NCBI RefSeq assembly: GCF_009769755.1
Contig: NZ_SDWJ01000001.1
Coordinates: 1-64,000, forward strand
Length of the DNA stretch: 64,000 nucleotides
Direction: 5' to 3'
Source of the DNA: Sphingorhabdus profundilacus
GTDB lineage: Bacteria > Pseudomonadota > Alphaproteobacteria > Sphingomonadales > Sphingomonadaceae
Shown: one piece after another, positions 6,096 to 28,960 of the stretch
How positions within the stretch are numbered: position 1 is the stretch's first letter
How the letters are laid out: each line of letters opens with the position of its first letter
Notes under the pieces: generated by a model
What the model was told of the DNA's origin: nothing
Database searches by the model: none
Seen by the model: only the letters and a program-made list of their open reading frames with translations
Translations under genes and position numbers: made by a program

Positions 6096-6120
6096 AACTG
6101 CGGGGAGTATGAATTGTTCC
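6096..6120 (-). promoter_or_regulatory. EcfG (general stress sigma) promoter of the repeat-protein gene
   Basis: On the minus strand GGAAC (6120-6116), 17 bases, then GTT (6098-6096). This matches the alphaproteobacterial EcfG consensus GGAAC-N17-GTT. The expected start of transcription leaves a leader of about 40 bases before the ATG at 6049. Confidence 0.8.
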
Positions 6121-6124
6121 TCGG

Positions 6125-8404
6125 TCACAGTTTGACGCGGTTGAGTCGCAAGGCGTTCAGCACCACGGTCAACGAGGACAGGGCCATCGCGGCGCCGGCA
6201 ATCATGGGTGACATCAATATGCCGGCGACCGGATAGAGCGCGCCTGCCGCGATCGGAATACCAATGCCGTTGAAAAGGAACGAGAAGAAGAGGTTTTGGC
6301 GAATGTTACGCATCGTGGCCGTTGATAGTCGACGCGCGCGGACGATGGCACCGAGATCGCCTTTGGTGAGCGTTATGCCGGCACTTTCGATGGCAACGTC
6401 AGTCCCGGTGCCCATTGCGACCCCGACATCAGCAACAGCAAGCGCCAGCGCGTCGTTGATGCCGTCACCTGCCATTGCAACCCTGGCACCATGAGCTTTC
6501 AGTTCACCGATAATCCGCGCCTTACCTTCCGGCAACAGGTTTGCACATATGTCGTCCAATCCACCAACCGCTGTTGCTACAGCGTTTGCCGTCAACTCAT
6601 TATCGCCGGTCAACATGACGACGCGCAGGCCTTGCGCCCGAAGTTCGGCAATAGCTTCGCTTGCGCCACTTCGAACCGGATCGGCAACCGCGATCAAACC
6701 GGCCAGCTTGCTTCCGATTGCGACGAACATGACGCCAGCGCCATTGCTGCGATACTTTTTTGCAGCGCTGGATAACGGTGTGGGATCAACTTGTATGCGG
6801 CGCAATTGCGCTTCATTGCCAATCACGACCATCTGTTTCCCAACCTTGGCGGAAACCCCCATACCGGTGTGTGACTTGAAATCCGTGACCGAGCCGAGCG
6901 AAAGGCCGCGCTCTGCGGCACCTGCGACAATAGTTTGCGCCAACGGATGTTCTGACTGCGCTTCAACTGCGGCAACACGGGAGAGCAGGTCATCGGCGGC
7001 GAAGGTTGCGTGTGGTTCAACCGCGATCAGCTTGGGCTTGCCCTCGGTCAGCGTTCCGGTCTTGTCGATAACGAGTGTGTCTACTGTCTCAAAGGCTTGC
7101 AGAGCCTCTGCATTCTTAATAAGCACACCCGCCTGTGCTCCACGTCCTGCCGCGACCATGATCGACATCGGCGTCGCAAGGCCAAGCGCGCAAGGGCAGG
7201 CGATGATCAGCACCGCGATTGCATTAAGCAAGGCGTGACTAAAGCGAGGCTCGGGGCCGAAGAGACTCCATGCGAGAAATGTCAAAACCGCAATGCCGAT
7301 AACTGCGGGTACAAACCAGCTCGAAATCCTGTCTGCAACCGCTTGGATCGGCGCTCGACTGCGTTGGGCATCGGCTACCATGCGGACAATATGCGCGAGC
7401 ATGGTGCTATCGCCCACGGCGCGCGCTTCGATAATCAGGCTGCCGGTTCCGTTGATCGTCGCGCCGGTCACAATGGCTCCTATGTCTTTGGCGACCGCGG
7501 CTGGTTCGCCGGTCAACATCGATTCATCAACGGTTGAGCGCCCTTCGATGACAACGCCGTCGACCGCAAAGGCCTCTCCGGGGCGGACGCGGAGCCGGTC
7601 TCCGGTCACAACCAGGTCAAGTGTGACCTCGCTTTCGGTGCCATCGGCTGCAATCCTATGCGCGGTCTTGGGAGCCAGATCCATCAATGCACGGATCGCA
7701 CGTCCCGTGGCAGCGCGGGCGCGCAGTTCCAGGACTTGACCAAGCAGCACCAGCGTCACAACAACGCCCGCCGCTTCATAATAGACGGGTATCATTCCGG
7801 CATGACCGCCAAAGGACGGAGGGAACAGTTGCGGAGCGACGGTCGCGACAATGCTGATGGTAAAGGCCGCGCCAACCCCGATGGAAATCAGCGTGAACAT
7901 GTTGAGGCGGCCCGTGACAAGCGATGTCCAACCCCGCACGAAAAAGGGCTGGCCCGCCCACAACACGATGGGCGCGGAAAGAACGAGCTGGATCCAGGGT
8001 GATGCGGTGGCGCTAACAATGTGCAACCCGAACATGTCGGCCCCCATTGAGAGCAGCAGTAACGGAATGCTCAGCACGGCTGCAACCCAAAGCCGCCGGG
8101 TAAAGTCGATCAGCTCTGGGTTAGGCGCATCGATGAGCGATGGTGCTTCAGGCTCCAGCGCCATTCCGCAAATTGGGCAAGATCCCGGACCGGCCTGCCG
8201 GATTTCGGGATGCATCGGACATGTCCACATTTCGGATGTCGTCGCAAGGAGCGGGCGAGTCATATCTTTCGGATAGCTCAACGGGTCGGCGATAAATTTT
8301 GCCTTGCAACCTGCACTGCAGAAATGGATCGTCCGGCCCGCATGATCTACGTTATAGGGTGACTTCACCGGATCGACCGTCATCCCGCAAACCGGGTCTT
8401 TCAT
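6125..8404 (-). CDS. copA: Copper-type P1B ATPase with N-terminal YHS domain
   Basis: 759-residue inner-membrane metal exporter. The N-terminus is a YHS/TRASH metal-binding domain ([22 protein letters not shown]; residues 1-45), followed by a second zinc-ribbon-like motif, WTCPMHPE...CPICGM (about 60-85). The usual HMA domain is absent. The core shows the transmembrane metal motif [12 protein letters not shown], the phosphorylation site [13 protein letters not shown]-type actuator motif (MLTGEPAAV) and hinge [10 protein letters not shown]. This architecture is common in Cu(I)/Ag(I) exporters of proteobacteria. The start overlaps the stop of the small upstream gene by ATGA, so translation is coupled. 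Metal specificity is inferred from the CPC motif. Confidence 0.93.
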
Positions 8405-8580
8405 TGCACCGCTAGGATGACCGTTATGGAAACGGGCGCATCTTCCTGTCGCTTAAGTGCCCCGAATTTACTGGCAACGTCCTGTGGCGCTTCGTTGACG
8501 GGACGTCCCGAAGACACAATTGCGCCGGGAAAGGCAGATCTCAACCGGTTGATTTCGGTGTTCGCGGATTTGATGTTCAT
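8401..8580 (-). CDS. 59-residue protein translationally coupled to copA
   Basis: Small cytoplasmic protein ([13 protein letters not shown]...) without cysteine, signal peptide or membrane segment, and no family I recognise. Support for a real gene: AAGGAGG at 8593-8587 sits six bases before the ATG at 8580, and its TGA overlaps the copA ATG (ATGA at 8404-8401). A longer start with 12 extra residues exists but lacks a ribosome site. The absence of Cys/His clusters argues against a classical metallochaperone. It may serve as a coupling leader or an accessory subunit; both ideas are inference. Confidence 0.65.
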
Positions 8581-8652
8581 CGATGTCCTCCTTATTCGGA
8601 CCTTGGATCGACGCATTTTAATACCGATATTGCAATCTGCCAGACTCGGAAT

Positions 8653-11600
8653 CTACTTAGCCTTGGCGGCAAGAGCTAAGCGGGCCAGCGCGGGTAGTGA
8701 CGTTGTGCCGGTTTTTGTCATGATCGCGGCACGATGATTTTCCACGGTGCGTTGACTAATGCCCAGGTCGGCGGCGATGATCTTGCTCGGCTGCCCGGCG
8801 AGCACCAGATCCATGACTTGATGTTGGCGTTTGGTAAGACCTGCAACCAGTTTCGCCGCAGCAATCTGCTGGTCAGAACGCTTGCTCACATTTTGTGCAA
8901 GCTCCAGCGCTCGGGTTATGCTTGCGAGCAGTTCTGCGGTGCCGATCGGCTTCTCGATGAAGTCCACGGCACCCGCCTTCATCGCCTCGACGGCAATTGG
9001 TACGTCGCTGTTTCCTGTGATCATGATGGCCGGAAGATGATCACCGCTTTCCTTCAGGCGCTGCAAAAGCTCTAGTCCGGTCATGCCGGGAAGATATGCG
9101 TCGATCAGCAAGCATCCCTCTTGCAATGGCTGGTAAGTCGAGAGAAACTCTTCGCAATTGGCGAAATCTTTCACTTCATGCCCTTCTGCTTCAAGCATTT
9201 CGCGCATGGAAGTGCGGATTAATGTATCATCGTCGACAATATAGACGACGGCATTTTCATTAAATTTGTTAGGCGTAGCGGCCAGCATCCGTCTAATCGC
9301 CTGGATCAGTATATTCGGTTTCACAGGTTTGTTGAGCTGTTCGCAATCATGGTCCGCTATATTACGTAGGGCCGCGGTTGATATATCGCCGGTCAAGATG
9401 ATTACTGGAACCATATGCCCGATCTTCTGCCGCAATCTGGCAGTAACCTCGACGCCGTTCATCCCGCCCGGCAGGTTATAGTCCGACAAGATGAGGCCAG
9501 GTTTAAACTGGGCGTCTGTCGCAAGTTTTAAAGCCGCCGCACCATCATAGGCCAAAACGACGTTATGACCTTCGTCGTCGAGCATTATTTTGAGCAATTC
9601 TCTTAACTCGGGATCATCCTCGATAATCAGGATTTGTCCACCACCCTGCGTCTTTAATGTGATGTCCTTGGGTACGGAATCCTGTTTACCGGATTGGCGC
9701 GGCAATGTCTTTACGTCTACCGCAAACACCGATCCTTTGGCTGGAATTGATCGGACATGAACCCTATACCCCAGCAGATTACCAAGACGCTTGACGATTG
9801 AAAGCCCCAGTCCCAGACCTTGGCTACGTTCGCGCGCGGCATTGTCGACCTGATGATATTCTTCAAAAATGGCGCCTAGATCAAACGCATCGATGCCAAC
9901 GCCGCTGTCCCAAATCTCGATGCGAAGATGATCGCTATGTCGGCGGCAGCCAATCAAAACCTTCCCCTTCGATGTGTATTTGATGGCATTGGCAATAAGA
10001 TTTCTCAAGATCTGTTCGAGCAGGCGTGGATCACTTGCTATCGATAGCCCGCAAGGTACAAGGCGCAGCGACAGTTGCTTGGCATCTGCATGATAAACAA
10101 ATTCGCTTCGGAGCCGTTCGAGCAGATCGCCGACTGGAAATGTCGAAATTTCTGCGCGTACAGTGCCGGCTTCGATCTGGTTGATATCGAGCAATGTGTT
10201 GAGCATACCAGACATGGCGCCCAATGTATCATCGACCCGTTTAACCAGTTGCTGCGCTTTAGGTCCCTCGACAATTTTGGCGAGTAGGCCCTGCAACAGC
10301 GCCAGCGTCTGAAGGGGTTGACGCAAATCGTGACTGGCAGCTGCAAGAAAACGTGATTTTGCCTCATTGGCCCGATCGGCCTGCTGCTTGGCATCTTCGA
10401 GTGCAAGTTTGATCTGTTTGCGCTCGCTCACGTCGGTAAATGTAATGACGACACCTTCGACCTTCCCGTCATCGGCAAGATAAGGCAAAATACGCCGAAC
10501 AAACCAAAGGCCAGGGGTAGTTTCGATTTCCCGGTCAATAGCATCCAGACTCGCAAGAACATGGTGGGCATCTTCTGAAAGAGCCTGATCCGCCGATAGT
10601 GACTTCAAATCTGTCAGCGGCCTGCCCACGTCACCTGGTATAAGATTGAAAAGCGCAGTTGTCGCAGGTGTAAAGAAACGAATGTTGAGATTGGTATCAA
10701 GAAATAGCGTGGCCACATCGGTACTATAAAGCACATTTTGCAAGTCATTTGACGTAATTCGCTGCCGATCAAGCGTTTCTTGAAGTTGACTGTTAAGGGC
10801 TGTCAATTCTTCATTCAATGACTGCAATTCCTCTTTCGACGTCAACAGTTCCTCATTGGTTGATTGAAACTCTTCATTAACCGACAGGGCTTCTTCATTA
10901 ACCGCGCGCTGCTCTTCACCTGATATTTCAAGATTATGGATCGCACCCTGCAATTCTGTCCGGGTGGTTTCCAATTCATGCTCCAGTTCGACGACACGGG
11001 CGGCATTGGTCGGCGACGCGGCGCGGCTTTTCCATGCTTTTGTGACCGGTACATCTACGAAGCACACAAGGAGCAACGGTTCGCCTTCGCTATTGACCGG
11101 TGTAACGTGGATGTCGAAATCGGCCAGCGGGCTGCCCTGTTCACTGCGTCGGCCGGTTACAATCACAAGCGCATTGGTCTGAATGGCCTGCTGAATTGCA
11201 GACCTTAGCTTTGTTCGGAGTGACTGGGGAGCCATGGAAAGGATGTCGTGGCTAGGATGCCCCGGCGCAACGCGGAGATAACGCTCCGTAGGACCAGAAG
11301 AAAAAAGTGCCTCATTTTTGCGATTTATCAGCACGGCAGCGGGGCAATGCGCTTCGGCGACCAGGCGTTGAACGAGATCGGCAAGCTTGTTTTGATGTGT
11401 GATTTGGCCTTGGCTATTTCGATTCGAACTGCGCGCCGCTTCGGCTTGACCAATCTGAAACCCGATTTCGCCGGGCTTACTGCGACCGACATGGCGATAA
11501 AGCCGCTCGACTTTTGAAATGACTTTGAAGCGACTTTCGTTGCTACCAATTGTTTCGGCATTGCCGAGCAACAAAATTCCTCCTTCACGTAATGCGAAGT

Positions 11601-12939
11601 GGAACAGCGCAATCACTTTGGCCTGTGCCTCTGGTCCGAGATAGATCAGCAGATTGCGGCATGAAACCATGTCAAGCCGAGAGAATGGTGGATCGGCAAG
11701 TACGTCCTGCACCGTGAACACGACTGCCGCGCGAAGCTCGGGAGACACGCGATAGCCTTGGTCTTCCTTGACAAAGAAACGCGCAAGCCGTTCGGCACTG
11801 ATCTGCGGCGCAATGGTTTCTGGATAAATACCAACCCGCGCAGCCGATATAGCGTCGCCGTCCACGTCCGAAGCAAATACCTGCAGCTTGATGTCGCGCT
11901 TGCTGGAAATGATCGCTTCGCGGAACAGCATCGCAAGCGAATAGGCCTCCTCTCCTGAACTGCACCCGGCTATCCAGATTCGTAGTGGACGGTCGGCCGG
12001 ATGATCGCGAACCATGTCAGGTACGATAGATTTTGCGAGCATATCAAATACCGCCATATCGCGAAAAAAGCTGGTAACATTGATGAGCAAATCCTTTGCG
12101 AGCAGATCGAGTTCCGTAGCATCGGTCTTCAATCTCTCGAGATATGTCGACAGATTGTCGATCAAGGCGAGGCCCATCCGCCGTTCAATTCGTCGCTGCA
12201 AGGTTCCCATTTTGTAGAGCGTGAAATCATGATTGGCCGAGGCACGCAGCAATTCAATAATCTCGGTGAAAAGGGTCGAATCTGTATTTGGCGCTAAATG
12301 GATGTTCAATGATCGCCGCGTTGAATCCATTAGAACGGCTGCAATTTCTGTAACCGGAAGGATAAGGTCAATAGCTCCCGCAGCGATCGCAGCCATTGGC
12401 ATACCCTGATATTCAGCTTCATCAGGGCTTTGCGCCATGGTGAAGCCGCCCGCGCTGTGAAGCAGAGTAAGCCCGATGGTTCCATCCGCACCGGTTCCCG
12501 ACAGGATCACCCCCGTTGTGCGGGAAGGACAATCCATCGCAAGTGATTGTAACAGAAAATCAAAGGGCAAGCGGGCACCATGAGGTGCGGTGGGTTTGGA
12601 AAGATGGAGACGTCCAGCGGTTACGGAGAGGTAATTACCTGGAGGAATGATATAAAGATGGCCGGGCTGAATGATCGAATCGTTTTGCGCCTGCGCCACT
12701 ACCATTGTCGTATGTCCGGCCAGCAAGTCGGCCATCATGCTTGCATGATTTGGATCAAGATGCTGAACAAGAATGAAAGCCATGCTACCGGCAGTGCGAT
12801 CCAGTCCTTTTGCTAAGGCATCTACCAGCTTTGTACAGGCGTCCAACCCGCCCGCAGACGCCCCTATCGCAACGATAGGAAAAAGTCTGGACGGCGACCG
12901 ATGCGTGGCCTTCAATGGTTTCGGCCGCTCGTCTGTCAT
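8653..12939 (-). CDS. CheB-CheR-PAS-histidine kinase-REC-REC-LuxR chimeric regulator
   Basis: 1428-residue cytoplasmic protein. Domains in order: CheB methylesterase (about 20-205; GASAGGLD, QHLDPNH, SGTGADGTIG), CheR methyltransferase (225-480; GCSSGEEAYSLAM), a Glu-rich coiled coil (640-725; SVNEEFQSTNEELLTSKEEL), PAS (735-845), HisKA (SHDLRQPLQTL), HATPase (NLIANAIKYTS, LGLGLSIVKRL), REC1 (IEDDPEL, DYNLPGG), REC2 (VDDDTLIRT, DAYLPGM) and a LuxR-type helix-turn-helix (GLTKRQHQVM...GISQRTVENHRA). The last 200 residues form a complete FixJ-like response regulator, so sensor and DNA-binding output are one chain. Start chosen at the ATG at 12939, with AAGGGA upstream; upstream in-frame starts reach 13077. 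The stop lies 72 bases before the small gene leading copA on the same strand. Input and targets are unknown. Confidence 0.9.
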   Translation of the reverse strand: MTDERPKPLKATHRSPSRLFPIVAIGASAGGLDACTKLVDALAKGLDRTAGSMAFILVQHLDPNHASMMADLLAGHTTMVVAQAQNDSIIQPGHLYIIPPGNYLSVTAGRLHLSKPTAPHGARLPFDFLLQSLAMDCPSRTTGVILSGTGADGTIGLTLLHSAGGFTMAQSPDEAEYQGMPMAAIAAGAIDLILPVTEIAAVLMDSTRRSLNIHLAPNTDSTLFTEIIELLRASANHDFTLYKMGTLQRRIERRMGLALIDNLSTYLERLKTDATELDLLAKDLLINVTSFFRDMAVFDMLAKSIVPDMVRDHPADRPLRIWIAGCSSGEEAYSLAMLFREAIISSKRDIKLQVFASDVDGDAISAARVGIYPETIAPQISAERLARFFVKEDQGYRVSPELRAAVVFTVQDVLADPPFSRLDMVSCRNLLIYLGPEAQAKVIALFHFALREGGILLLGNAETIGSNESRFKVISKVERLYRHVGRSKPGEIGFQIGQAEAARSSNRNSQGQITHQNKLADLVQRLVAEAHCPAAVLINRKNEALFSSGPTERYLRVAPGHPSHDILSMAPQSLRTKLRSAIQQAIQTNALVIVTGRRSEQGSPLADFDIHVTPVNSEGEPLLLVCFVDVPVTKAWKSRAASPTNAARVVELEHELETTRTELQGAIHNLEISGEEQRAVNEEALSVNEEFQSTNEELLTSKEELQSLNEELTALNSQLQETLDRQRITSNDLQNVLYSTDVATLFLDTNLNIRFFTPATTALFNLIPGDVGRPLTDLKSLSADQALSEDAHHVLASLDAIDREIETTPGLWFVRRILPYLADDGKVEGVVITFTDVSERKQIKLALEDAKQQADRANEAKSRFLAAASHDLRQPLQTLALLQGLLAKIVEGPKAQQLVKRVDDTLGAMSGMLNTLLDINQIEAGTVRAEISTFPVGDLLERLRSEFVYHADAKQLSLRLVPCGLSIASDPRLLEQILRNLIANAIKYTSKGKVLIGCRRHSDHLRIEIWDSGVGIDAFDLGAIFEEYHQVDNAARERSQGLGLGLSIVKRLGNLLGYRVHVRSIPAKGSVFAVDVKTLPRQSGKQDSVPKDITLKTQGGGQILIIEDDPELRELLKIMLDDEGHNVVLAYDGAAALKLATDAQFKPGLILSDYNLPGGMNGVEVTARLRQKIGHMVPVIILTGDISTAALRNIADHDCEQLNKPVKPNILIQAIRRMLAATPNKFNENAVVYIVDDDTLIRTSMREMLEAEGHEVKDFANCEEFLSTYQPLQEGCLLIDAYLPGMTGLELLQRLKESGDHLPAIMITGNSDVPIAVEAMKAGAVDFIEKPIGTAELLASITRALELAQNVSKRSDQQIAAAKLVAGLTKRQHQVMDLVLAGQPSKIIAADLGISQRTVENHRAAIMTKTGTTSLPALARLALAAKAK

Positions 12940-13069
12940 GATGACCCGTCCCTTAAATATAGGTTCCCGCTGAACCATAACAACACGGCTTCGCTTTTGT
13001 TCCACGCGGCGGTGTGCGGACAAACTGAGTAGGGGCGCTTCGGTTAGACAAGTCAACGAATAAGCGGGT

Positions 13070-13094
13070 GGAACCAAATACGAAATGAGTAGTT
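13070..13094 (+). promoter_or_regulatory. EcfG promoter of dps
   Basis: GGAAC (13070-13074), 17 bases, GTT (13092-13094), 64 bases before the dps ATG. This is a full match to the general stress sigma factor consensus. Confidence 0.85.
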
Positions 13095-13157: not shown

Positions 13158-13661
13158 ATGCAAAAGACCCACAATACCCTATCCGAAAAAATCCGGATTC
13201 AGTCGGTTGAGCTTCTAAACAAGCATCTGGCCGCCGCAATTGATCTCCATGCCCAAGTAAAACAGGCGCACTGGAATGTGCGTGGCCCCGGCTTTATCGC
13301 GATCCATGAGCTTTTTGACCGGGTTTCGGTGGAAGTAGAGAATTTCTCCGACATGCTCGCAGAACGTGCCGCCGGACTGGGAGGTAGCGCAAACGGAACT
13401 ATCCAGGTAGCAATCAAGGAATCATTTCTGATCCCATACCCGCTGGGCATCGCAGATGAATCAAAGCATCTGTTCGCAGTATCAGCCGCGCTGGCTGCAT
13501 TTGGCGGCTCGATTATCGAGGCGATCGGAAAGTCTGCGGAGATCGAAGATCCCACCACAGCCGATCTTTTTACCGAAATCTCGCGGGGTATCGATCAGCA
13601 ACTCTATTTCGTTGAATCCCATTTTGCCCCGTTGAAGGTCGATCCGTCTAAAGGAAACTGA
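13158..13661 (+). CDS. dps: Dps, DNA-binding ferritin-like protein
   Basis: 167-residue Dps: a dodecameric shell that binds the nucleoid and oxidises Fe(II) with peroxide, limiting hydroxyl radical damage. The ferroxidase ligands are visible in HAQVKQAHWNVRGPGF and HELFDRVSVEVENFSDMLAER (His, His, Asp and Glu in the family spacing). Length and the Lys/Arg-bearing N-terminus fit. The start is the ATG after GGAG at 13147-13150. It is preceded by an EcfG promoter and followed immediately (TGAATG) by a response regulator gene, which indicates a stress-induced bicistron. Confidence 0.95.
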   Translation: MQKTHNTLSEKIRIQSVELLNKHLAAAIDLHAQVKQAHWNVRGPGFIAIHELFDRVSVEVENFSDMLAERAAGLGGSANGTIQVAIKESFLIPYPLGIADESKHLFAVSAALAAFGGSIIEAIGKSAEIEDPTTADLFTEISRGIDQQLYFVESHFAPLKVDPSKGN

Positions 13662-14021
13662 ATGCGTAAGATATCGATCCTCATTGTCGAAGACGAACCC
13701 ATTATCGGCATGTTGCTGTCTGAAGTGCTGGCTGGAATGGGTCACAACGTGATAGCGGTCGTAGGAACCGAGGGAGCAGCGGTTGCAATAGCTGCGGAGT
13801 ATTTGCCCGACCTGCTGATTGTGGATGCAGGGCTGACGTCGGGCAATGGTATCTCTGCGGTTGATATGATCCTGACGACAGGGTTCGTACCGCACCTCTT
13901 CACAACCGGTGACGCGATGAAAGTCAGACAACTTAGACCCGATGCCATCATACTCGAAAAGCCGTTCAACGAATCCGACCTAGCCGATGCCATCGCCAGT
14001 GCGTTGACGCATCACAGTTGA
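13662..14021 (+). CDS. Single-domain response regulator
   Basis: 119 residues consisting of one receiver domain and no output domain. Acidic pocket EDEP near residue 10, phosphoacceptor Asp in LLIVDAGLTSGNG, conserved Thr in HLFTTGDA and Lys in ILEKPFNESD. The ATG directly follows the dps stop, so it shares the dps EcfG promoter. Stand-alone receivers of this kind in sphingomonads act as phosphate sinks or feed the general stress phosphorelay. Here the partner kinase is unknown; the HisKA_2 kinase at 25 kb is a candidate. Confidence 0.85.
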   Translation: MRKISILIVEDEPIIGMLLSEVLAGMGHNVIAVVGTEGAAVAIAAEYLPDLLIVDAGLTSGNGISAVDMILTTGFVPHLFTTGDAMKVRQLRPDAIILEKPFNESDLADAIASALTHHS

Positions 14022-16996: not shown

Positions 16997-17458
16997 TTAG
17001 CGTGTCAATTGACCCCGGATTGCGCCCTGTGGGAATTCTGTGGTTGAAATCTGGATATAATAATTGCCCGGTTTCCATTCCAGCGAGTCTTCGAGCCATT
17101 CGGACCGCTTGACACAATTCTTCCATCCGCCTTCATTTGCGCGGCTGAAGGTAAGGACGGCCGGTCCTGTTTGGCCCCTCAAACCGCGATTGATTGACAC
17201 AGAAGTAATGTCCGCAATGTTATTGATTTTGTTTATGTCGTAACAGATCTGGTCGAGCGTGTTGGCAATGCTGACCTCGGCTTGGGCGGACCCGTCCCGG
17301 TCACCGGTAGAGGTGACGACTTCGCGCCCGCTCAACGAGGCGCGATGGGTCTCGGCGACAGCCTCGACAACCCCCTCCTCTAAAGTGGCGCATCCCGCCA
17401 TGAGGGAAGGAAGCACGATTGCAAACGCGATAGCGACGTTTTTGGGACTCATATTCAT
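16997..17458 (-). CDS. CHRD-domain lipoprotein
   Basis: 153-residue exported protein. A hydrophobic N-terminus ends in LMAGC, a plausible lipobox with the lipidated Cys at 23. The rest is a CHRD-type beta-rich domain ending in GNYYIQISTTEFPQGAIRGQ, the family hallmark (Y..I.T...P.G.IRGQ). Two further Cys (ICYD, KNCVK) may pair. Start chosen at the ATG at 17458 with AAAGGA seven bases upstream. It has its own EcfG promoter and is divergent from a second EcfG-driven gene. CHRD proteins are extracytoplasmic with no established function. Confidence 0.85.
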   Translation of the reverse strand: MNMSPKNVAIAFAIVLPSLMAGCATLEEGVVEAVAETHRASLSGREVVTSTGDRDGSAQAEVSIANTLDQICYDINKINNIADITSVSINRGLRGQTGPAVLTFSRANEGGWKNCVKRSEWLEDSLEWKPGNYYIQISTTEFPQGAIRGQLTR

Positions 17459-17490: not shown

Positions 17491-17515
17491 AACCCGTTGC
17501 GGGCTTTATTGTTCC
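17491..17515 (-). promoter_or_regulatory. EcfG promoter of the CHRD lipoprotein
   Basis: On the minus strand GGAAC (17515-17511), 17 bases, GTT (17493-17491), 33 bases before the ATG at 17458. It is back to back with the plus-strand EcfG promoter that begins 18 bases away. Confidence 0.82.
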
Positions 17516-17532: not shown

Positions 17533-17557
17533 GGAACTTAATCAATCCAGTCGGGTT
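17533..17557 (+). promoter_or_regulatory. EcfG promoter of the autotransporter
   Basis: GGAAC (17533-17537), 17 bases, GTT (17555-17557), 63 bases before the ATG at 17621. Confidence 0.82.
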
Positions 17558-22544: not shown

Positions 22545-22910
22545 CTACCAGGTAACGCCGTAATAGCTGTTGATCATCGTGCCATATGAGTCATCAAAGA
22601 CAGGGGCGTTGCCGCTTGAATGCTTGGGCGCTTTGTCAAGGGTCGGTTGGTCGATATCGACCACAAAGCCATTTTGCGTATCATCATATTTAAGCTTCTT
22701 CCAAGGCAGCGGATAATGATCTTCGCCCATGCCCAGAAATCCGCCGAACGACATCACGGCATATTCGACTTGGCCGGTTCGTTTGTTGACCATGAAATTC
22801 TGGACTTTGCCCATTTTTTCACCGTCCTTGTTAAATATGGTGGTTCCCTCGACCATATCTGATGCAATCAGCGACATTGTTTCTTTGTGCTCGGTTTCGT
22901 GGTCTGCCAT
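22545..22910 (-). CDS. PRC-barrel domain protein
   Basis: 121 residues with a PRC-barrel: TTIFNKDGEKMGKVQNFMVN followed by VEYAVMSFGGFLGMGEDHYPLPWKKL. Such stand-alone proteins are frequent in alphaproteobacterial stress regulons, and their ligand is unknown. The ATG follows AGGA by eight bases. It is the first gene of the operon continuing into GT4 and GH130. No signal peptide, so it is probably cytoplasmic. Confidence 0.88.
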   Translation of the reverse strand: MADHETEHKETMSLIASDMVEGTTIFNKDGEKMGKVQNFMVNKRTGQVEYAVMSFGGFLGMGEDHYPLPWKKLKYDDTQNGFVVDIDQPTLDKAPKHSSGNAPVFDDSYGTMINSYYGVTW

Positions 22911-22943: not shown

Positions 22944-22968
22944 AACTGGCAGAGGTCGGATATGTTCC
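22944..22968 (-). promoter_or_regulatory. EcfG promoter of the PRC-GT4-GH130 operon
   Basis: On the minus strand GGAAC (22968-22964), 17 bases, GTT (22946-22944), 34 bases before the ATG at 22910. Confidence 0.85.
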
Positions 22969-23024: not shown

Positions 23025-24062
23025 TTAGTCGGGCTGACCGGATATCCGGGTGAGAGCATTTTTAACCTTGCGCGCTTCGTCTGCCAATTGGGCTTCGCGC
23101 TTCGCACTTATTGGATCGGATGCGCTCATGCCTTCTGACTCTGCGTTGAGCCGATTGTCCATTTCCGAATCCCACTCCGTCAGAAGTGCCTGTTTGTCGC
23201 CGTCAGCAAGCTGTGGATCGGCAAGCAAAGCCTCTGGAGTGTCAAAATGTTTGCGCGGATTGGGTGTCATATCATCCATCGCCAAAATTGCGGGGGCCGC
23301 CGCCGCCAATCGTTCACGATGGACCAGAAGAGCCTGGCCGATGGTAGCGATTACAGTTTCAGGTTCGAACGGCTTGGTAATAAGGTAAGTGGGTTCGGGC
23401 CGTTCACCCGTCAGCAGACGTTCCGGGAATGCAGTGATGAAAATCACCGGCACATTCATCGCGCCCAATATGTCTTTCACCGCATCGATCCCGCTGGATC
23501 CATCGGCCAGGCTGATATCGGCGAGTACGAGCTCGGGTTGGGTTCTTGCTGCTAGCGCAACGGCTTCCGAACGGGTGCGTGCGACGCCGGTGACACTGTG
23601 GCCAAGCGCTTCGACAATCGAACGGATGTGCAATGCAATGATAGCTTCATCTTCAATGATCATGACCGAGGATTGCAGGCTATCGGTGATGGACTGCCGG
23701 GCGATTGCGGAATTGGCGGAAACCGACTCAACATCACTTCCGAGAATTTCGGCCGCCTCCTGCATACTGAACCCTTCTACAGCGGTTAAAAGCAATGCTT
23801 GCCGACCCTGGACCGGCAAACGCGCAACAAGTCCGTCGCCACCGCTTGGTTCGACCAACGCATCGTGTCGCCACAGTTGGTGAAATATGCGGTATAGTTC
23901 GACCCGTGCCGGTTTTTGGGCATCCAATTCTTCGGGCGCGAGCAAAAGCCCTTCCAGCACCTGACGCACAGCTGCGTCGCCCATTTTTTGCGATCCTGTC
24001 AGCGCACGCGCATAGCGGCGCAAGAAAGGGAGTTCAGGCGCAACCGCTGCTTTAAGTGACAT
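23025..24062 (-). CDS. phyR: PhyR anti-anti-sigma response regulator with extra C-terminal domain
   Basis: 345 residues. An N-terminal sigma-factor mimic (about 1-125, LPFLRRYARALTGSQ...EGFSMQEAAEILG) is followed by a receiver domain (about 133-250; IIEDEAIIALH, phospho-Asp in LADISLADG, Lys in LITKPFEPE). When phosphorylated, PhyR binds NepR and frees EcfG. Canonical PhyR ends near 265 residues. This one carries about 80 more: PNPRKHFDTPEALLADPQLA...LLTEWDSEMDNRL...AQLADEARKVKNAL, resembling a small protein usually encoded separately in alphaproteobacteria. Start at 24062 (MSLKAAVAPELP) rather than 24068, because GAGGA is then at proper spacing. Divergent from nepR-ecfG, with its own EcfG promoter. 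Confidence 0.93.
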   Translation of the reverse strand: MSLKAAVAPELPFLRRYARALTGSQKMGDAAVRQVLEGLLLAPEELDAQKPARVELYRIFHQLWRHDALVEPSGGDGLVARLPVQGRQALLLTAVEGFSMQEAAEILGSDVESVSANSAIARQSITDSLQSSVMIIEDEAIIALHIRSIVEALGHSVTGVARTRSEAVALAARTQPELVLADISLADGSSGIDAVKDILGAMNVPVIFITAFPERLLTGERPEPTYLITKPFEPETVIATIGQALLVHRERLAAAAPAILAMDDMTPNPRKHFDTPEALLADPQLADGDKQALLTEWDSEMDNRLNAESEGMSASDPISAKREAQLADEARKVKNALTRISGQPD

Positions 24063-24088: not shown

Positions 24089-24113
24089 AACTGCCCGGAG
24101 CGGTTTTTGTTCC
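24089..24113 (-). promoter_or_regulatory. EcfG promoter of phyR
   Basis: On the minus strand GGAAC (24113-24109), 17 bases, GTT (24091-24089), 27 bases before the phyR ATG. It implies positive autoregulation of the general stress response. Confidence 0.85.
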
Positions 24114-24120: not shown

Positions 24121-24146
24121 GGAACTTTTTCCCCGAGTATCGAGTT
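24121..24146 (+). promoter_or_regulatory. EcfG promoter of nepR-ecfG
   Basis: GGAAC (24121-24125), 18 bases, GTT (24144-24146). The spacer is one base longer than in the other eight sites. It starts eight bases from the divergent phyR promoter. Confidence 0.72.
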
Positions 24147-24212
24147 TACGCTAGCATGGATGGCAAGTCGCCACCCGTTTTTTCCATGACGGCAAGGAAT
24201 TCGGTGACAAAC

Positions 24213-24449
24213 ATGCAAATATCGCCGACACCCACCGGCCTACAATCGAAACCCATGCTGGCGGAGCAACAAGCAATGGTGAAAGCGAACAAGCCCGGCA
24301 ATCATGATTCGGATAGCGGAGCCGATCCAATCGCGGCCGCGCTGAAACAAATGCATGATGCGGTGGCAAATGAAGAGCTGCCTGCCGACTTTCTGAAGTT
24401 GCTCGATGAAATTGATATGAAGATAGCCGATAAAAAGGCATCGCATTGA
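24213..24449 (+). CDS. nepR: NepR anti-sigma factor
   Basis: 78-residue (from this start) anti-sigma factor that sequesters EcfG until phosphorylated PhyR competes for it. The two-helix NepR core is visible: DPIAAALKQMHDAVANEELPADFLKLLDEID (motif about residues 38-67; key hydrophobics IAAAL and FLKLLDEI). The start is uncertain. ATGs at 24186 and 24213 are in frame; neither has a strong ribosome site, and 24213 has AAGGA 15 bases up. Its stop overlaps the TTG start of ecfG (TTGA), which couples sigma and anti-sigma translation. Confidence 0.87.
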   Translation: MQISPTPTGLQSKPMLAEQQAMVKANKPGNHDSDSGADPIAAALKQMHDAVANEELPADFLKLLDEIDMKIADKKASH

Positions 24450-25081
24450 CGCGCGCGGGGGAGGCCATTGATCCTGACAAGGTGTTTCGCGACCAGCTGG
24501 TGGCGCTGCTGCCGTCTCTTCGCGCCTTTTCGCGGGGGCTATGCGGGCACAGGGAAATGGCCGACGATCTGGCGCAAGACACGATGATGCGCGCCTGGGC
24601 CGCACGCGCAAGCTATACCCAAGGTACAAATTTCCGCGCGTGGATGTTTATGATCATGCGTAACCAGTTTTATTCAACAATCCGGAAAAATTCGCGGACG
24701 ACTTCGCTTGATCCAGAGGTTGCTGAACGCATACTCGTGGTCGCGCCCGCGCAGCAAAATGGCATCAATGTCGACGATGTCGCCAAGGCTTTGCAAAAAT
24801 TGCCAGCGGAGCAAAGGGAGACATTGTTGCTCATCGGTGCAAATGGCCTATCTTATGACGAGGCTGCTGAAGTGATGGGATGTGCCATGGGTACCGTCAA
24901 AAGCCGCCTCGCACGCGGGCGCAGCGCGCTGGCCGCCATGATTGATGGTCCTGCCGACAACGCATTATTTGATTCCCCGCCGCAAAAGGCTAAGCTTGGC
25001 GAAGGTCATGAGGTCGCACATATATTTAGTGACATCCTGCGGGAACCACCCACGGCGAAGAGCGCGATAATCGCCAGCTGA
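24446..25081 (+). CDS. ecfG: EcfG general stress ECF sigma factor
   Basis: 211-residue ECF15-type sigma factor. Region 2: LRAFSRGLCGHREMADDLAQDTMMRAW and FRAWMFMIMRNQFYS (about residues 24-73). Region 4: LPAEQRETLLLIGANGLSYDEAAEVMGCAMGTVKSRLARGRS (about 112-155, helix-turn-helix). It recruits RNA polymerase to GGAAC...GTT promoters. The TTG start at 24446 overlaps the nepR stop and has AAAAAGG eight bases upstream; an in-frame GTG at residue 13 is the alternative. The unusual start codon and overlap should keep sigma output below NepR. Confidence 0.92.
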   Translation: MTRAGEAIDPDKVFRDQLVALLPSLRAFSRGLCGHREMADDLAQDTMMRAWAARASYTQGTNFRAWMFMIMRNQFYSTIRKNSRTTSLDPEVAERILVVAPAQQNGINVDDVAKALQKLPAEQRETLLLIGANGLSYDEAAEVMGCAMGTVKSRLARGRSALAAMIDGPADNALFDSPPQKAKLGEGHEVAHIFSDILREPPTAKSAIIAS

Positions 25082-25114
25082 ACCAAGTCAGGGTTGAGAA
25101 AAGGAATGCATTCG

Positions 25115-26806
25115 ATGCGACCGGTCACCTTGCGTAATGGTCTGGTTCTGATCGTTATCGCGGCACTATTGCCGATCGGTACGTTAAGCATCGTACAAGC
25201 GCTATCGACCTTGAACTATTCGCGCACCCTCATTGGCAATAGACTGGTGACCAGCGCATTGGCAACGGCCGCCCGCGAGCGCGATCCTCTGGTTATCAGT
25301 AAACAGGTGCTGCTGACATTGAGCAAGGATCCGCAGGTGGTGTCCGGAAAAGCGGGATGCAGCGCCGCGCTGAAGGCGGCACTTGGGAACCTTGCTGCAT
25401 TCCCCAATTTAGCGCGCTCTGACGCAATGGGTCGCGTTCAATGTTCGATTCTGCCGTTTGATCCAACAATATCTTTTGCCAAAGAAGCGTGGTGGCAGCG
25501 CGGTATCAAGGCACAAGGCTTCACAGTCAGCGCGCCAGTATATGGACAAATTTCAAAGCGGCGTATCCTTGTGGGCATGCAGCCCATCCGGGCTGAAGAT
25601 GGCACCAATGATGGCGCTGTGACCGTCGCGATCGACGCATCATGGCTGGAGCGATCAATGAATGCTTCGGAACTGGGTGCTGATGCCGCAGTTGCCATCG
25701 TCGACAAACAGGGAATTGTTGTCCTTACAAGCGAGAACAGACATCTACCCCAATTTAACGTCACTTACGGAGACGCCAAAGTGGCCGATGCAACTGCGCT
25801 GGACGGTGTTGCGTGGATGTACGCGGTTGCCCCGCTTTATGATCACGAGCTTTTCGTTGTCTATGCCGAGCCCACCGAGCATTTGATGGCGACTGCGGTT
25901 AAACAAGTTCGCATCAGCCTGCTTTTGCCGATTGCGGCCCTTCTGATCGCGTGCCTGGCGATCTGGCTTGGCACCACGCGGCTTGTCCTTCGATGGCTAG
26001 AGTCGCTCCGCACGCTTGCCTCGCAATTTGCAAAAGGCGATTTTGCCGGAAATGCCGAGAAATATGAGCGCGCGCCGCGCGAGCTTGGGTTGCTGAGCGC
26101 CGATCTGCATAGCATGGCGCGCGCAATCGAGACCCGCGACCTTGAGCTGCAGGCGGCCCTTAATGCCAAGACCGCGTTGACGCATGACATACATCACCGG
26201 GTGAAGAATAATCTGCAAATCGTCAGCAGCCTGCTCAATCTTCAGGCAGGAAAGATCAGCGACCCTGCCGCGCGAGAAGCGCTAAACCAGACTCGCGCCC
26301 GTATAGGAGGGCTCGCGCAGATCCACCGGTTGCTCTATGAAGAAAGCCACGACAGCGATCATGGCAATGTCAACATCGCCAGTCTGCTAAATGCCCTGTG
26401 CGTTCAGTTGCGCGCACTGCATCGGGGGCAGGGCAATGTGCATTTAATATGCGAAGCGGCATCACAAACCGTCCCCATCAACAATGCAGTTCCCCTCACT
26501 TTACTTGCTGTCGAAGCGGTAACCAATGCCTATCGGCACGGCTATCCTTCCGGCCAGACCGGCAAGATAGTCGTCCAGTTCGATGTGGTCGATGAACAGG
26601 CAACATTATCGGTATCCGATGATGGCAGCGGATTTGATGCCACGCAAAAGACTGCGTCGATGGGGGGGCAGTTAATGGAGGCATTTGCCCAGCAGCTGGG
26701 CGGCGTACTCAGCGTCATTTCGGCACCGGGAAACGGGACAGTCATCAAGCTCGCATATCCGCTTTTGCACGAACAGGTAGACACTGAATTCACCTCCGGC
26801 GCTTAG
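25115..26806 (+). CDS. HisKA_2 sensor histidine kinase of the general stress response
   Basis: 563-residue membrane kinase. Transmembrane segments near residues 8-28 and 266-290 flank a periplasmic Cache-like domain of about 235 residues. A HAMP-like stretch (WLESLRTLASQFAKGDF) leads to the HisKA_2 phosphoacceptor box DIHHRVKNNLQIVSSLLNLQ (His about residue 364) and an HATPase domain (EAVTNAYRHGYP, VSDDGSGFDA). Position directly after ecfG and the HRVKNNLQ box match PhyP/PhyK-type partners of PhyR in sphingomonads. Whether it acts as kinase or phosphatase cannot be read from sequence. Start at 25115, nine bases after AAGGA; ATG 25106 and TTG 25094 have poorer spacing. Confidence 0.9.
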   Translation: MRPVTLRNGLVLIVIAALLPIGTLSIVQALSTLNYSRTLIGNRLVTSALATAARERDPLVISKQVLLTLSKDPQVVSGKAGCSAALKAALGNLAAFPNLARSDAMGRVQCSILPFDPTISFAKEAWWQRGIKAQGFTVSAPVYGQISKRRILVGMQPIRAEDGTNDGAVTVAIDASWLERSMNASELGADAAVAIVDKQGIVVLTSENRHLPQFNVTYGDAKVADATALDGVAWMYAVAPLYDHELFVVYAEPTEHLMATAVKQVRISLLLPIAALLIACLAIWLGTTRLVLRWLESLRTLASQFAKGDFAGNAEKYERAPRELGLLSADLHSMARAIETRDLELQAALNAKTALTHDIHHRVKNNLQIVSSLLNLQAGKISDPAAREALNQTRARIGGLAQIHRLLYEESHDSDHGNVNIASLLNALCVQLRALHRGQGNVHLICEAASQTVPINNAVPLTLLAVEAVTNAYRHGYPSGQTGKIVVQFDVVDEQATLSVSDDGSGFDATQKTASMGGQLMEAFAQQLGGVLSVISAPGNGTVIKLAYPLLHEQVDTEFTSGA

Positions 26807-27067
26807 CTATTTTTTAAGCTCTGCGTCCGCCGCTTCAACGGCATTATCGACCTTTTTCAGGTCCGATTTCACTTCGCGTTGCACGCCCTGCGCCTTGTGT
26901 TCGACAATCCGTGCCTTGGCTTCGATCTTGTCCTGTTGGGCATTCGCGTCTGAACGGGCCTTCGCAATCGCGGAATCCGCCTGACGCCCTTTGTCTTCCA
27001 GATTTTCTTTGTCAGAACAGCCGGAAACCAATGCGATCAGTGGCAATAGGGTTAGAAAATTACGCAT
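26807..27067 (-). CDS. Small coiled-coil lipoprotein, stress-induced
   Basis: 86 residues. Signal peptide with lipobox LVSGC (Cys 17), then an uninterrupted charged helix rich in Ala, Lys, Glu and Asp with heptad character (DSAIAKARSDANAQQDKIEA...). It resembles small periplasmic Lpp/YtxH-like helical lipoproteins. The family is not certain. An EcfG promoter lies 34 bases upstream, inside the 3' end of the next gene on the same strand. Likely an envelope stabiliser under stress (inference). Confidence 0.8.
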   Translation of the reverse strand: MRNFLTLLPLIALVSGCSDKENLEDKGRQADSAIAKARSDANAQQDKIEAKARIVEHKAQGVQREVKSDLKKVDNAVEAADAELKK

Positions 27068-27097
27068 TGATTTGGTCCTTTTGGTGGATGTTGACCA

Positions 27098-27547
27098 CTA
27101 AACATCCGGCTGATGCATATGTTCCTTATGCAGCCGCCGCCCACCAATGGCGATCTGGATTTCGGTGAGAAATTCGATCAGCCCGCCGGCGAGGAGCAAC
27201 ATCGCAAGCACAAAAATTAGCGCAATGGTGTTTCCAAGATTAAGGCCGATCATCTGGCTGACAAACAGAAATACGACTACAAGACATACGGCAAGCGCGC
27301 TTGCAACACAGAGGGTGGTGGCGTGATTGCTGTGCTTTATGCGGCGTTCAAGCAGCAAGAGTTCAGTGGCGTATCTGTGATGCTCGACTCCAGCAGATTT
27401 CGAATGCAAGTCTTCGATCGCCCGCACCCTGTCTACGGATCTGCTGAGCCGCATTCCCACGACATTCAATATGCCGCCAATACCGGCAAACAGAAATACC
27501 GGTGCCACTGCTGACTGGATGGTCGACGCGATCGCGTTAAACGGCAT
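27098..27547 (-). CDS. DUF2721 membrane protein
   Basis: 149-residue protein with three predicted membrane segments (about 14-34, 77-99, 106-128). The first segment leads into NVVGMRLSRSVDRVRAIED, the DUF2721 signature, and the cytosolic loop is charged (LLLLERRIKHSNHATT). Function of the family is unknown. The last bases of the gene overlap the EcfG promoter of the following lipoprotein. No EcfG motif precedes this gene itself. Confidence 0.82.
   Translation of the reverse strand: MPFNAIASTIQSAVAPVFLFAGIGGILNVVGMRLSRSVDRVRAIEDLHSKSAGVEHHRYATELLLLERRIKHSNHATTLCVASALAVCLVVVFLFVSQMIGLNLGNTIALIFVLAMLLLAGGLIEFLTEIQIAIGGRRLHKEHMHQPDV
27101..27125 (-). promoter_or_regulatory. EcfG promoter of the small coiled-coil lipoprotein
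   Basis: On the minus strand GGAAC (27125-27121), 17 bases, GTT (27103-27101), 33 bases before the ATG at 27067 and within the 3' end of the DUF2721 gene. Confidence 0.8.
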
Positions 27548-27627: not shown

Positions 27628-27670
27628 TTGAAATCCGGATATGCGCTCGAATGTTTCACCTATCCGTTCT

Positions 27671-27901
27671 TCAATCCTTAGCAGGCGCCGCATTGGCCCG
27701 GGTTTTGCCGACTTTCGTGGCTTGATCGGGACTGTTGCGATGCAGGAGCGTGGAACCGATGGCTGTGGCGGCGGCGCCCACTGCCACACCAATCACCGCA
27801 GCGCTCGCAATTTTCTCTTTAGTGGAAATGTGGCTAATCTGCTCGACAGCAGCAGTTTTGATTGCCGTCATCTTATCCTTGGCTGTTTTCGCTGTTAACA
27901 T
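27671..27901 (-). CDS. Small membrane-anchored protein of unknown function
   Basis: 76 residues with one hydrophobic, Ala/Gly-rich segment (about 31-54, KIASAAVIGVAVGAAATAIG) between a Lys/Thr-rich N-terminus and a basic tail. No family recognised. AAAAGGAG precedes the ATG at the right distance, which supports translation. It lies in the cluster of small stress proteins but I see no EcfG motif before it. Confidence 0.65.
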   Translation of the reverse strand: MLTAKTAKDKMTAIKTAAVEQISHISTKEKIASAAVIGVAVGAAATAIGSTLLHRNSPDQATKVGKTRANAAPAKD

Positions 27902-28006
27902 GTCAGCTCCTTTTAGGGTTCAATTTGGTTGTACGGCGCGTCCGGGTTTATTGATTGAACGCTCGATCACTAAGATTGCGGTTTGACCGGGAATTGTGCC
28001 CGATTT

Positions 28007-28276
28007 TCAGCGAACCGAACCACGCCGGACCAGATTCACGATTCCCAGCAGCACAACCGCACCAAGTAGCGAGACGGCGAGTGACTTTATATCAAATGCA
28101 CCCGATGTGATCGGCGCGCCTCCAAGCAAAGGTGTCAACAGATAGCCGGCCAGAATGGCACCGACCACGCCGACCACTACATTCAACAAAATTCCTTGTT
28201 GGCCGTCTGTCCGCATAATCATGGACGCCAGCCATCCGAGGATACCGCCGACGATGAGCATGATGATCAAATTCAT
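28007..28276 (-). CDS. GlsB/YeaQ/YmgE family stress membrane protein
   Basis: 89 residues, three transmembrane segments with the family pattern GGILGWLASMI...QGILLNVVVGVVGAILAGYLL and a C-terminal ...GAVVLLGIVNLVRRG. These transglycosylase-associated small membrane proteins are widely induced by stress. AGGAG lies seven bases before the ATG. An EcfG promoter overlaps the end of the superoxide dismutase gene upstream, so it can be induced separately from sod. Confidence 0.92.
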   Translation of the reverse strand: MNLIIMLIVGGILGWLASMIMRTDGQQGILLNVVVGVVGAILAGYLLTPLLGGAPITSGAFDIKSLAVSLLGAVVLLGIVNLVRRGSVR

Positions 28277-28291
28277 TTTACTTCTCCTGAT

Positions 28292-28960
28292 TCATGAAAC
28301 CGTAATAACGAACGGAGCCGCATTTGGTTCCACCCGCGTCGGCGTTTCTTCGTTCATTGCCGATGCCGCGGCGGCAAGATTGGCATTGGCAAAGTCCCAA
28401 TTGAGCAGATGGTCGAGAAACACCGTGACAAAATCGGCACGCCGGTTTTGATAGTCGAGATAATAGGCATGCTCCCAAAGGTCGCAGCATAACAACGGCG
28501 TCCGCACGTTCCGCGGAGGGAGTTCTGCATCATGGGTTGTAACTATTCCAACCGCGCCGTCCGTTACGACCAGCCAAACCCACCCGGAACCGAAATGCTT
28601 GGCTGCCGCCGCGCTGAACGCCGCCCGAAACGCCGCGTCGTCACCGATTTCACGTTCAATCAGCATCTTGATATCGCCGGTCGGCGGTCCGCCGCCATCC
28701 GGTTTCATCGATTTCCAGAAGAAATCATGATTCCAGCTTTGAGCGGCGTTGTTGAAAATGGTTTGGCGCGCAGCAAGTCCCTGGGACTGTTGAATAACCT
28801 CTTCAAGAGGCAAATCCGATAACGCATCGCCGTCAAGCAATTTGTTGAGCGTATCGACATAACCCTTGTGATGCTTGCCATGATGTAACGCCAGTGTTTC
28901 TGCCGAAATATGCGGTTCCAGCGCATCCTCTGCATAAGGAAGTTTGGGGAGGGTAAACAT
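28292..28960 (-). CDS. sodB: Superoxide dismutase (Fe/Mn)
   Basis: 222-residue Fe/Mn SOD that converts superoxide to oxygen and peroxide. Metal ligands appear in order: His in TLALHHGKHHKGYVD, His in AAQSWNHDFFW, Asp and His in DLWEHAYYLDYQNRR. FGSGWVWLVV is the core strand. Cytoplasmic, with no signal peptide. Start chosen at the ATG at 28960 with AGGAG upstream, nine residues shorter than the longest frame. The C-terminus is about 20 residues longer than usual (AMNEETPTRVEPNAAPFVIT). Fe versus Mn use is not settled by inspection. Confidence 0.93.
   Translation of the reverse strand: MFTLPKLPYAEDALEPHISAETLALHHGKHHKGYVDTLNKLLDGDALSDLPLEEVIQQSQGLAARQTIFNNAAQSWNHDFFWKSMKPDGGGPPTGDIKMLIEREIGDDAAFRAAFSAAAAKHFGSGWVWLVVTDGAVGIVTTHDAELPPRNVRTPLLCCDLWEHAYYLDYQNRRADFVTVFLDHLLNWDFANANLAAAASAMNEETPTRVEPNAAPFVITVS
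28307..28331 (-). promoter_or_regulatory. EcfG promoter of the GlsB-type gene
   Basis: On the minus strand GGAAC (28331-28327), 17 bases, GTT (28309-28307), 31 bases before the ATG at 28276. It is embedded in the last codons of sod. Confidence 0.78.

Follow-up and report, generated by a model that had tools for sequence, protein, structure and literature searches.

Do the promoter-like motifs gathered around phyR-nepR-ecfG in Sphingorhabdus profundilacus belong to the sigma factor EcfG, and do they mark a stress regulon laid out beside its own switch? We examined positions 1 to 64,000 of contig NZ_SDWJ01000001.1 (assembly GCF_009769755.1), called the window below, for which an earlier reading, the original prediction, had proposed nine EcfG-type promoters of the form GGAAC-N17-GTT or, in one case, GGAAC-N18-GTT. 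The segment that holds them is very probably the core general-stress-response locus of alphaproteobacteria plus a local regulon. The interpretation of the sites as EcfG-type promoters was supported by their local enrichment, strict spacing and position before start codons, and by preservation of the motif before orthologues, including some that now lie elsewhere in their genomes. Directly from the sequence come the proteins and the promoter positions, together with conservation for some of the targets.

Motif density and spacing around phyR

All nine predicted sites (eight N17 and one N18) were present, with coordinates and strands correct. The number nine was too low. An N17 site at 12979-13003 on the minus strand had been overlooked, which makes ten promoter-like sites, and a one-base variant with GGATC at 29226-29250, before a CsbD-like gene, is a likely eleventh.

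Across the 64-kb window the exact motif was found 13 times at N17, once at N16 and once at N18. Between 6000 and 28400 there were 10 matches at N17 and at most 3 at any other spacing (10-16 and 18-25). When the two cores were permuted, GGAAC/GTT at N17 ranked first of 90 core pairs, with 10 matches versus 4 for the runner-up. The complete genome (2,907,197 bases in three contigs) contained 82 N17 matches, and the density in the rest of the genome was not equal to that of the segment with its 10 matches. From the genome density, 0.63 matches were expected in this 22.4-kb segment, and 1.13 were expected in a fixed 40 kb centred on phyR, which also held 10 (Poisson p 3e-7). A genome-wide excess of N17 was looked for and was absent (82 matches versus a mean of 78 over the other spacings from N12 to N22); therefore, the signal is local. 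The same comparison of N17 with other spacings in 41 relatives gave no clear split by PhyR presence.

Position of the sites relative to genes

Genes were called by a simple codon-usage script trained on the window, not by a published tool. With the starts it called, 8 of the 10 N17 matches lay 26-63 bp ahead of a start in the correct orientation. The script placed the start of a hybrid-kinase gene at 12978 and that of nepR at 24276, and two other starts were chosen by hand: 12939, picked on its ribosome-binding site (the CheB domain starts at residue 23), and 24186, picked because similarity to the nearest named locus, L021, starts at residue 13. With the hand-chosen 12939 the count was 9 of 10. 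The N18 site of nepR is 9 bp from ATG 24156 and 39 bp from the in-frame ATG 24186. When both hand-chosen starts were used, all ten promoter-like sites were 26-63 bp upstream of starts. Measured from the end of GTT, the distances ran from 26 to 63 bp (27 to 67 bases in the original prediction), with the nepR value depending on the start codon. The sites at 27101 and 28307 overlap the 3' end of the preceding gene. The remaining N17 match of the segment, at 25669-25693, falls within a kinase gene and is probably due to chance. Three further matches in the window (44020, 50279 and 60242) also fall within genes; that at 44020 is additionally 53 bp ahead of the next start in a type II secretion operon.

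Outside the window, all 69 N17 and 59 N18 contexts were read, and base rates for the expectations were taken from the window, where 3.0% of random positions (549/18,280) lay 15-80 bp before a start. By this distance rule, 7 of the 69 N17 and 4 of the 59 N18 matches were promoter-like, with 3.8 expected together. By a second rule, which required no full overlap with a gene and a start within 300 bp, the counts were 7/69 and 7/59, with 7.4 expected together. The other N17 matches were within genes (50), overlapped a gene with a start further on (8) or did neither (4). Compared with 7/69 outside, the proportion in the segment gave a Fisher p of 9e-6 for 8/10 and 5e-7 for 9/10. Ten promoter-like exact sites (8 by either mechanical rule alone) therefore lie in 0.8% of the genome, and the rest of the genome has 11 to 14, where chance alone would give 4 to 7. 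About half of the genome's recognisable exact-motif promoters are packed around the phyR locus. These counts cover the exact motif; a weaker, dispersed regulon with degenerate sites (GCAAC, varied -10 boxes) may exist elsewhere.

Ten matches in a fixed 40 kb where 1.13 are expected, placed as promoters would be and kept before orthologues (below), which already contradicts chance, make it extremely improbable that we are looking at a pile-up of a motif common in the genome, even though such an account would fit the missing genome-wide excess and the 50 of 69 outside matches that fall inside genes. Spacing, permuted cores and genome density were the grounds on which chance was rejected.

Conservation of the sites before orthologous genes

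We then compared 36 genomes of the genus (completeness at least 90%; G numbers, with S. profundilacus as G000) and 80 named loci around relatives of phyR (L numbers). A close orthologue of the small protein encoded at 28007-28276 was found in 14 of the 36 genomes (our own and 13 others at 69-84% identity), and an N17 site lay 27-30 bp upstream in 14 of 14, our own included. EcfG orthologues (E ≤5e-64) were detected in 14/36 genomes, exactly the same 14, and these also carry PhyR over its whole length. Nine distant homologues of the 28007-28276 protein in EcfG-less genomes had no N17 or N18 site within 3.26 kb (0/9), a contrast that lends indirect support to a role of EcfG. As a separate observation, the gene of this type in G016, G018 and G041 is preceded by fully overlapping divergent EcfG-type sites (L011 15813-15839, L013 15873-15899 and L172 1793-1819). 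GGAACC...GGTTCC can be read as a promoter in either direction, since the reversed -35 box itself contains GTT.

The glycosyltransferase operon was present in 9 of the 14 genomes with EcfG and was preceded by an N17 site in 8 of them, our own included. In the seven others the site was 130-314 bp upstream of the first base that could be aligned; the N-terminus is not conserved. In G018 the operon is about 860 kb from phyR, and the N17 site is still present. The ninth genome, G043, has the operon without the site, and its phyR carries an in-frame stop. No site was found before the homologue (42%) in EcfG-less G013 (0/1) or before a second copy in G016 (0/1).

The nearest named PhyR loci are from metagenome-assembled genomes filed as Novosphingobium sp. 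and Sphingomonadaceae/Sphingomonadales. In L021, whose PhyR is 75% identical, the orders phyR-PRC-glycosyltransferase-GH130 and dps-receiver are repeated, with sites before phyR, the PRC-barrel gene and dps and an N16 site before nepR. The dps site of L021 also has a divergent partner at 9523-9547, matching the hybrid-kinase site, and the contig ends before the gene. Homologues of a repeat protein encoded at 4517-6049 were located near phyR in L022, L023 and L025. In L023 an N17 site lay 43 bp ahead of the homologue's first residue, and in L022 and L025 one lay 325-355 bp ahead of the first aligned residue (153/154). The CsbD-like orthologue in the same three loci had the exact motif 47-49 bp upstream, and in G001 a homologue (57%) of a CHRD-domain protein near phyR had an N17 site upstream.

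GGAAC-like -35 boxes are common to several groups of extracytoplasmic function (ECF) sigma factors, and a second, distant ECF factor is present at C2:492989-493369 (E 2e-11). That the sites serve this or another ECF factor with a GGAAC-type -35 box, and not EcfG, is nevertheless very unlikely: the close 28007-28276 orthologue and its site are found in the same 14 genomes as EcfG, G021, G011 and G048 have distant ECF factors only and no close orthologue, and in most of 20 other alphaproteobacteria the sites gather at phyR.

The core switch and its proposed operation

PhyR, with a C-terminal tail of ~90 residues, is encoded at 23025-24062 on the minus strand, 26 bp from its N17 promoter (24089-24113, minus). 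It matched PF22029 and PF22233 (PhyR_sigma2 and PhyR_sigma-like) and PF00072 (Response_reg), and its receiver residues D182 (the phospho-acceptor) and K230 were invariant in 16 aligned PhyR proteins. On the plus strand, the N18 promoter (24121-24146) precedes the gene of the anti-sigma factor NepR (24156-24449, possibly starting at the in-frame ATG 24186), which matched PF18557 with 27.8 bits versus a cut-off of 25.7. The EcfG gene (24446-25081, with a putative TTG start as mechanically listed) encodes Sigma70_r2/r4 domains, and its orthologues in 13 other genus genomes were 59-71% identical. The overlap of nepR and ecfG suggests an operon, divergent from phyR. It is followed by a Cache-HisKA_2/HWE sensor kinase gene (25094-26806, plus; Pfam) in the PhyK/PhyT position.

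By analogy with established work on PhyR-NepR-EcfG, from which the phosphorelay and partner switch would follow, a stress-sensing HWE/HisKA_2 kinase would phosphorylate PhyR, either directly or via other regulators, and phosphorylated PhyR would bind NepR and free EcfG. RNA polymerase with EcfG would then use GGAAC-N17/18-GTT promoters to transcribe about eight neighbouring units as well as phyR and nepR-ecfG themselves. The proposed targets are dps with a response regulator, the CheB-CheR hybrid kinase, the PRC-glycosyltransferase-GH130 operon and the CHRD protein, and further the autotransporter-type protein, the aromatic-repeat protein and two small proteins.

In front of phyR and nepR, the two promoters are arranged back to back, with their -35 boxes 7 bp apart. 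The same arrangement was found in L021 (7 bp), L027 and L028 (8 bp) and L196 of G042 (5041-5065/5073-5097, 7 bp); no exact back-to-back phyR/nepR pair was found in the other genus members examined. There would hardly be room for two polymerases at the same time, and phyR and nepR-ecfG may therefore take turns in being transcribed. Such alternate transcription may tie the amount of the switch to that of the inhibitor and sigma factor.

Several points weigh against assigning the whole set to EcfG. The boundaries of the 22.4-kb segment were defined by the matches themselves, and because that span was drawn around them, the 40-kb figure (10 versus 1.13) is the fairer one. The nine negative homologues of the 28007-28276 protein are ~40-54% identical and may represent another subfamily rather than decayed orthologues, and second copies in EcfG-bearing genomes lacked the site in 6 of 7 cases, with one carrying it. 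The in-frame stop in phyR of G043 was offered after the fact as the explanation for its missing glycosyltransferase site. The loci searched contained no homologue of the hybrid kinase, the autotransporter-type gene or the 86-residue protein. C before GTT (CGTT) occurs in one of the ten sites and is missing from the other nine; because only that one has a CGTT -10 box, most of the sites may be weak promoters. Finally, the EcfG dependence of the transcripts is what we infer from the motif and its context.

Genes of the segment

The leftmost site (6096-6120, minus) is 46 bp before the start of a gene at 4517-6049 (minus) for an aromatic-glycine repeat protein (GYYDxxGRW) with a glycine-zipper segment (Pfam EAGR_box and Rick_17kDa_Anti). 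Its N-terminus suggests that the protein is probably exported. EAGR_box is a feature of Mycoplasma terminal-organelle proteins, and the repeats of this type in the 4517-6049 protein are probably convergent. The site at 12979-13003 (minus) is 39 bp before ATG 12939 of a hybrid kinase of 1428 residues with the Pfam order CheB-CheR-PAS-HisKA-HATPase-receiver-LuxR (8653-12939, minus). On the other strand, the site at 13070-13094 (plus) is 63 bp before dps (13158-13661, plus), which encodes a Dps-like ferritin (Pfam Ferritin) and has a single-domain response regulator gene immediately 3' of it (13662-14021, plus).

Two divergent sites have -35 boxes 17 bp apart. That at 17491-17515 (minus) is 32 bp before the gene of a probably exported CHRD-domain protein (16997-17458, minus), and that at 17533-17557 (plus) is 63 bp before the gene of a protein with an autotransporter beta-domain (17621-18814, plus; Pfam). 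The site at 22944-22968 (minus) is 33 bp before a PRC-barrel gene (22545-22910) that heads an operon with a group 1 glycosyltransferase gene (20150-22534, scanned as 20150-22540) and a gene for a GH130-family protein, a glycoside phosphorylase family (18866-20113), all on the minus strand and assigned by Pfam.

Downstream of the kinase, the site at 27101-27125 (minus) overlaps the 3' end of a DUF2721 gene and is 33 bp before a gene for an 86-residue protein without a Pfam match (26807-27067, minus); this protein is probably exported or a lipoprotein. The site at 28307-28331 (minus) overlaps the 3' end of a superoxide dismutase gene and is 30 bp before the gene of the transglycosylase-associated (PF04226) small protein (28007-28276, minus). 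The one-mismatch site GGATC-N17-GTT (29226-29250, minus) is 46 bp before the gene of the CsbD-like small protein (PF05532; 28997-29179, minus). The glycan operon and small membrane proteins named in the original prediction agree with this annotation. Its two surface proteins can be taken as the autotransporter-type and repeat proteins, whose surface location is likewise predicted.

Elsewhere in the window, two genes of the MCRA family, a family of oleate hydratases, lie side by side in tandem at 337-3803. The type II secretion operon spans 36357-46636, with GspC, D, E, F, K, L and M identified by Pfam in a scan of its genes up to F and from K on, and a beta-lactamase-family protein (PF13354) adjoins two S41-peptidase-family proteins at 56948-61549.

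Clustering around phyR in other alphaproteobacteria

From the 80 named loci, 20 from other alphaproteobacteria, picked largely for long contigs, were compared with their own genomes (sizes rounded to 0.1 Mb). They had 87 N17 sites at up to about 10 kb from phyR versus 9.9 expected, about ninefold. The number per locus ranged from 0 (two Rubellimicrobium) to 10, with at most 2 sites in 7 of the 20. Ten other genus members (nine with EcfG and the remnant-bearing G002; G041-G044 were left out) had 38 versus 8.0. Our own genome had 7 versus 0.56 at 20 kb, about 12-fold, a value exceeded by 4 of the 20, and over 40 kb it was the highest among the genus genomes compared, just above G001. The claim that promoters are concentrated around phyR-nepR-ecfG is therefore true, and the feature is common among alphaproteobacteria, not special to this genome. 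That phyR and nepR-ecfG carry EcfG-type promoters is well established (PMC4814048). Among the open-access entries listed, titles and beginnings of abstracts contained nothing measuring phyR-centred clustering across species.

A different arrangement was seen in L032-L100, mostly Rhodobacterales by title. By a strict rule, 14 of these 69 loci had overlapping palindromic divergent promoters, for example GGAACCAAACG-N-CGTTTGGTTCC, 70-115 bp upstream of the point where the match to phyR begins. The same loci showed an excess of N22/N23 matches, and 92 of 189 such matches also had GTT at N17 or N18. About half of the N22/N23 matches are thus explained by a second GTT five bases on, in part from palindromic promoters; the other half (97/189) are without such an explanation.

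Presence and possible loss of the system in the genus

The PhyR frame was open in 13 of the 14 EcfG-bearing genomes, and that of G043 held one stop. We mapped presence on a tree of MurA DNA, in which 35 genomes were used (G009 had no match). The pattern needed 9 changes, 8 of them forced by well supported branches, and near sisters differed in presence in G007/G019, G022/G050 and G042/G048. Two genomes had remnants. G002 kept PhyR, with NepR and EcfG absent within 20 kb on either side, and G015 had only the receiver part of PhyR, on a 5-kb contig. An exact N17 site is kept just 3' of the phyR remnant in both (L003-L004 of G002 and L020 of G015). In G043 the in-frame stop is near the beginning of phyR (L294 10112-10867), and ecfG and the 28007-type gene with its site remain; this looks like loss at an early stage, or else an assembly error.

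On the MurA tree, presence showed scarcely more clustering than when the labels were shuffled (66 of 500 shuffles were as low). Because the label is barely clustered, some absences may be assembly gaps. Set against this account is G004, one contig with 100% completeness. According to a Rhizobium etli paper, the system occurs in essentially all free-living alphaproteobacteria (PMC3892343). Nothing on repeated loss of the system inside one genus was found among the open-access entries listed, as far as titles and beginnings of abstracts go.

These results raise a further reading, which adds to the regulon described above and does not replace it: PhyR-NepR-EcfG and nearby targets may form a portable or repeatedly lost cassette that was gained, exchanged and lost within the genus, with a history in this genome that differs from that of the chromosome. 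We give this an even chance. Besides the 14/36 presence, the 8-9 changes and the remnants in G002 and G015, it draws on conflicting trees. MurA groups G000 with G016, G018 and G041 and rejects a clade of G000 and G042 (log-likelihood difference 180, approximately unbiased p 2e-8). By contrast, PhyR plus EcfG from the 14 genomes join G000 with G042 (100/99) and reject G000 with G016/G018/G041 (log-likelihood difference 56, approximately unbiased p 4e-6). Among the genus PhyR examined, the C-terminal tail occurs only in G000 and G042; among all loci examined, this region (window 23025-23306, ~90 residues, about 65-75% identical) was found in G000, G042, L021 and L022 only.

Other results speak against the cassette. 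Presence is spread almost at random on the MurA tree, so that assembly gaps could inflate the number of changes, and a single marker gene, MurA, stands for the species tree. In the PhyR-EcfG tree, G042 and G001 have long branches and are placed unsurely, and when nine named loci were added, G000 paired with L021, with G042 in the same nine-row group but not as sister (97/97). The clades tested were named after the trees had been seen. Neither the 50 window proteins scanned nor ARAGORN showed an integrase, a transposase or a tRNA border; the one ARAGORN call, a tRNA-Gly at 39201-39294 inside gspD, is probably spurious. The G+C content of the segment was 54.6%, versus a mean of 54.9% for 115 stretches of the same genome around motif matches. 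A recent acquisition, considered on base composition, was unsupported, as the segment equals the genome in this respect.

Neighbouring genes gave mixed affinities. The 28007-28276 protein of G000 was closest to that of G042 (84%), but within the genus its glycosyltransferase (about 70%) and GH130 protein (83%) were closest to those of G016/G018/G041, a further point against a single cassette; the neighbourhood is therefore a mosaic. The simplest reading is that the core cassette was exchanged. The main alternative is ancient duplication with sorting, which would yield the same conflict; paralogous PhyR, NepR and EcfG do occur in Sphingopyxis granuli TFA (PMC7083833).

DISCUSSION

The locus itself is a textbook system of a well-known kind. 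What the present analysis adds is a compact regulon, part of whose promoters can be traced gene by gene through relatives, and a measured concentration of EcfG-type promoters around phyR, which is about ninefold over 20 genomes. The sister pairs that differ in the system are natural knockouts. They make it testable which genes need EcfG, what its loss costs and how a regulon dissolves after loss of its sigma factor. Given the presence and absence pattern across the genus, the assignment of targets can also be tested by comparing sister species.

The stress response may moreover be a dispensable and exchangeable cassette here, a view whose truth and falsehood we hold to be equally probable. By keeping much of its recognisable promoter set adjacent, the sigma factor would allow switch and targets to be swapped between lineages or dropped together; the system would have changed at least 8 times in 35 genomes and be decaying in three further ones, and the cassette in our own genome would have a history other than that of its chromosome. 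If true, this contrasts with a system held by essentially all free-living alphaproteobacteria.

Among known systems, that of Sphingopyxis granuli TFA (PMC7083833) also has an EcfG-type promoter before nepR2, and nepR2 overlaps ecfG1 by 4 bp, as nepR and ecfG would here if ecfG starts at TTG 24446. TFA differs in having two EcfG, paralogous NepR and PhyR and 79 direct units, whereas one full PhyR-NepR-EcfG set was found in our genome. The TFA consensus contains CGTT, which is present in 1 of our 10 sites. According to the same paper (PMC7083833), the CGTT -10 box gave the most transcript among the promoters tested, a preference and not an absolute requirement, and in TFA the -35 box also reads GCAAC and the -10 box varies. 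The published EcfG motif has GGAAC followed by N16 before CGTT or N17-20 before GTT, and the nine N17 sites and one N18 site are within this spacing.

The phyR loci L032-L100 resemble ours in that EcfG-type sites are concentrated around phyR. They differ in that 14 of 69 have overlapping palindromic promoters that face each other, whereas here the arrangement is back to back and the -35 boxes are 7 bp apart. Finally, Sphingomonas melonis Fr1 (PMC6599016 and PMC5898713) shares with our genome the core proteins, a sensor kinase-like protein at the phyR locus and the motif GGAAC-N17-20-GTT. It also shares target classes (PRC-barrel protein, glycosyltransferase, DNA-binding ferritins and hybrid kinase), a likeness at the level of class. 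About 200 Fr1 genes are directly or indirectly EcfG-dependent, and by locus number the targets named there are spread out, whereas the S. profundilacus genome has ten exact-motif promoters within 22 kb.

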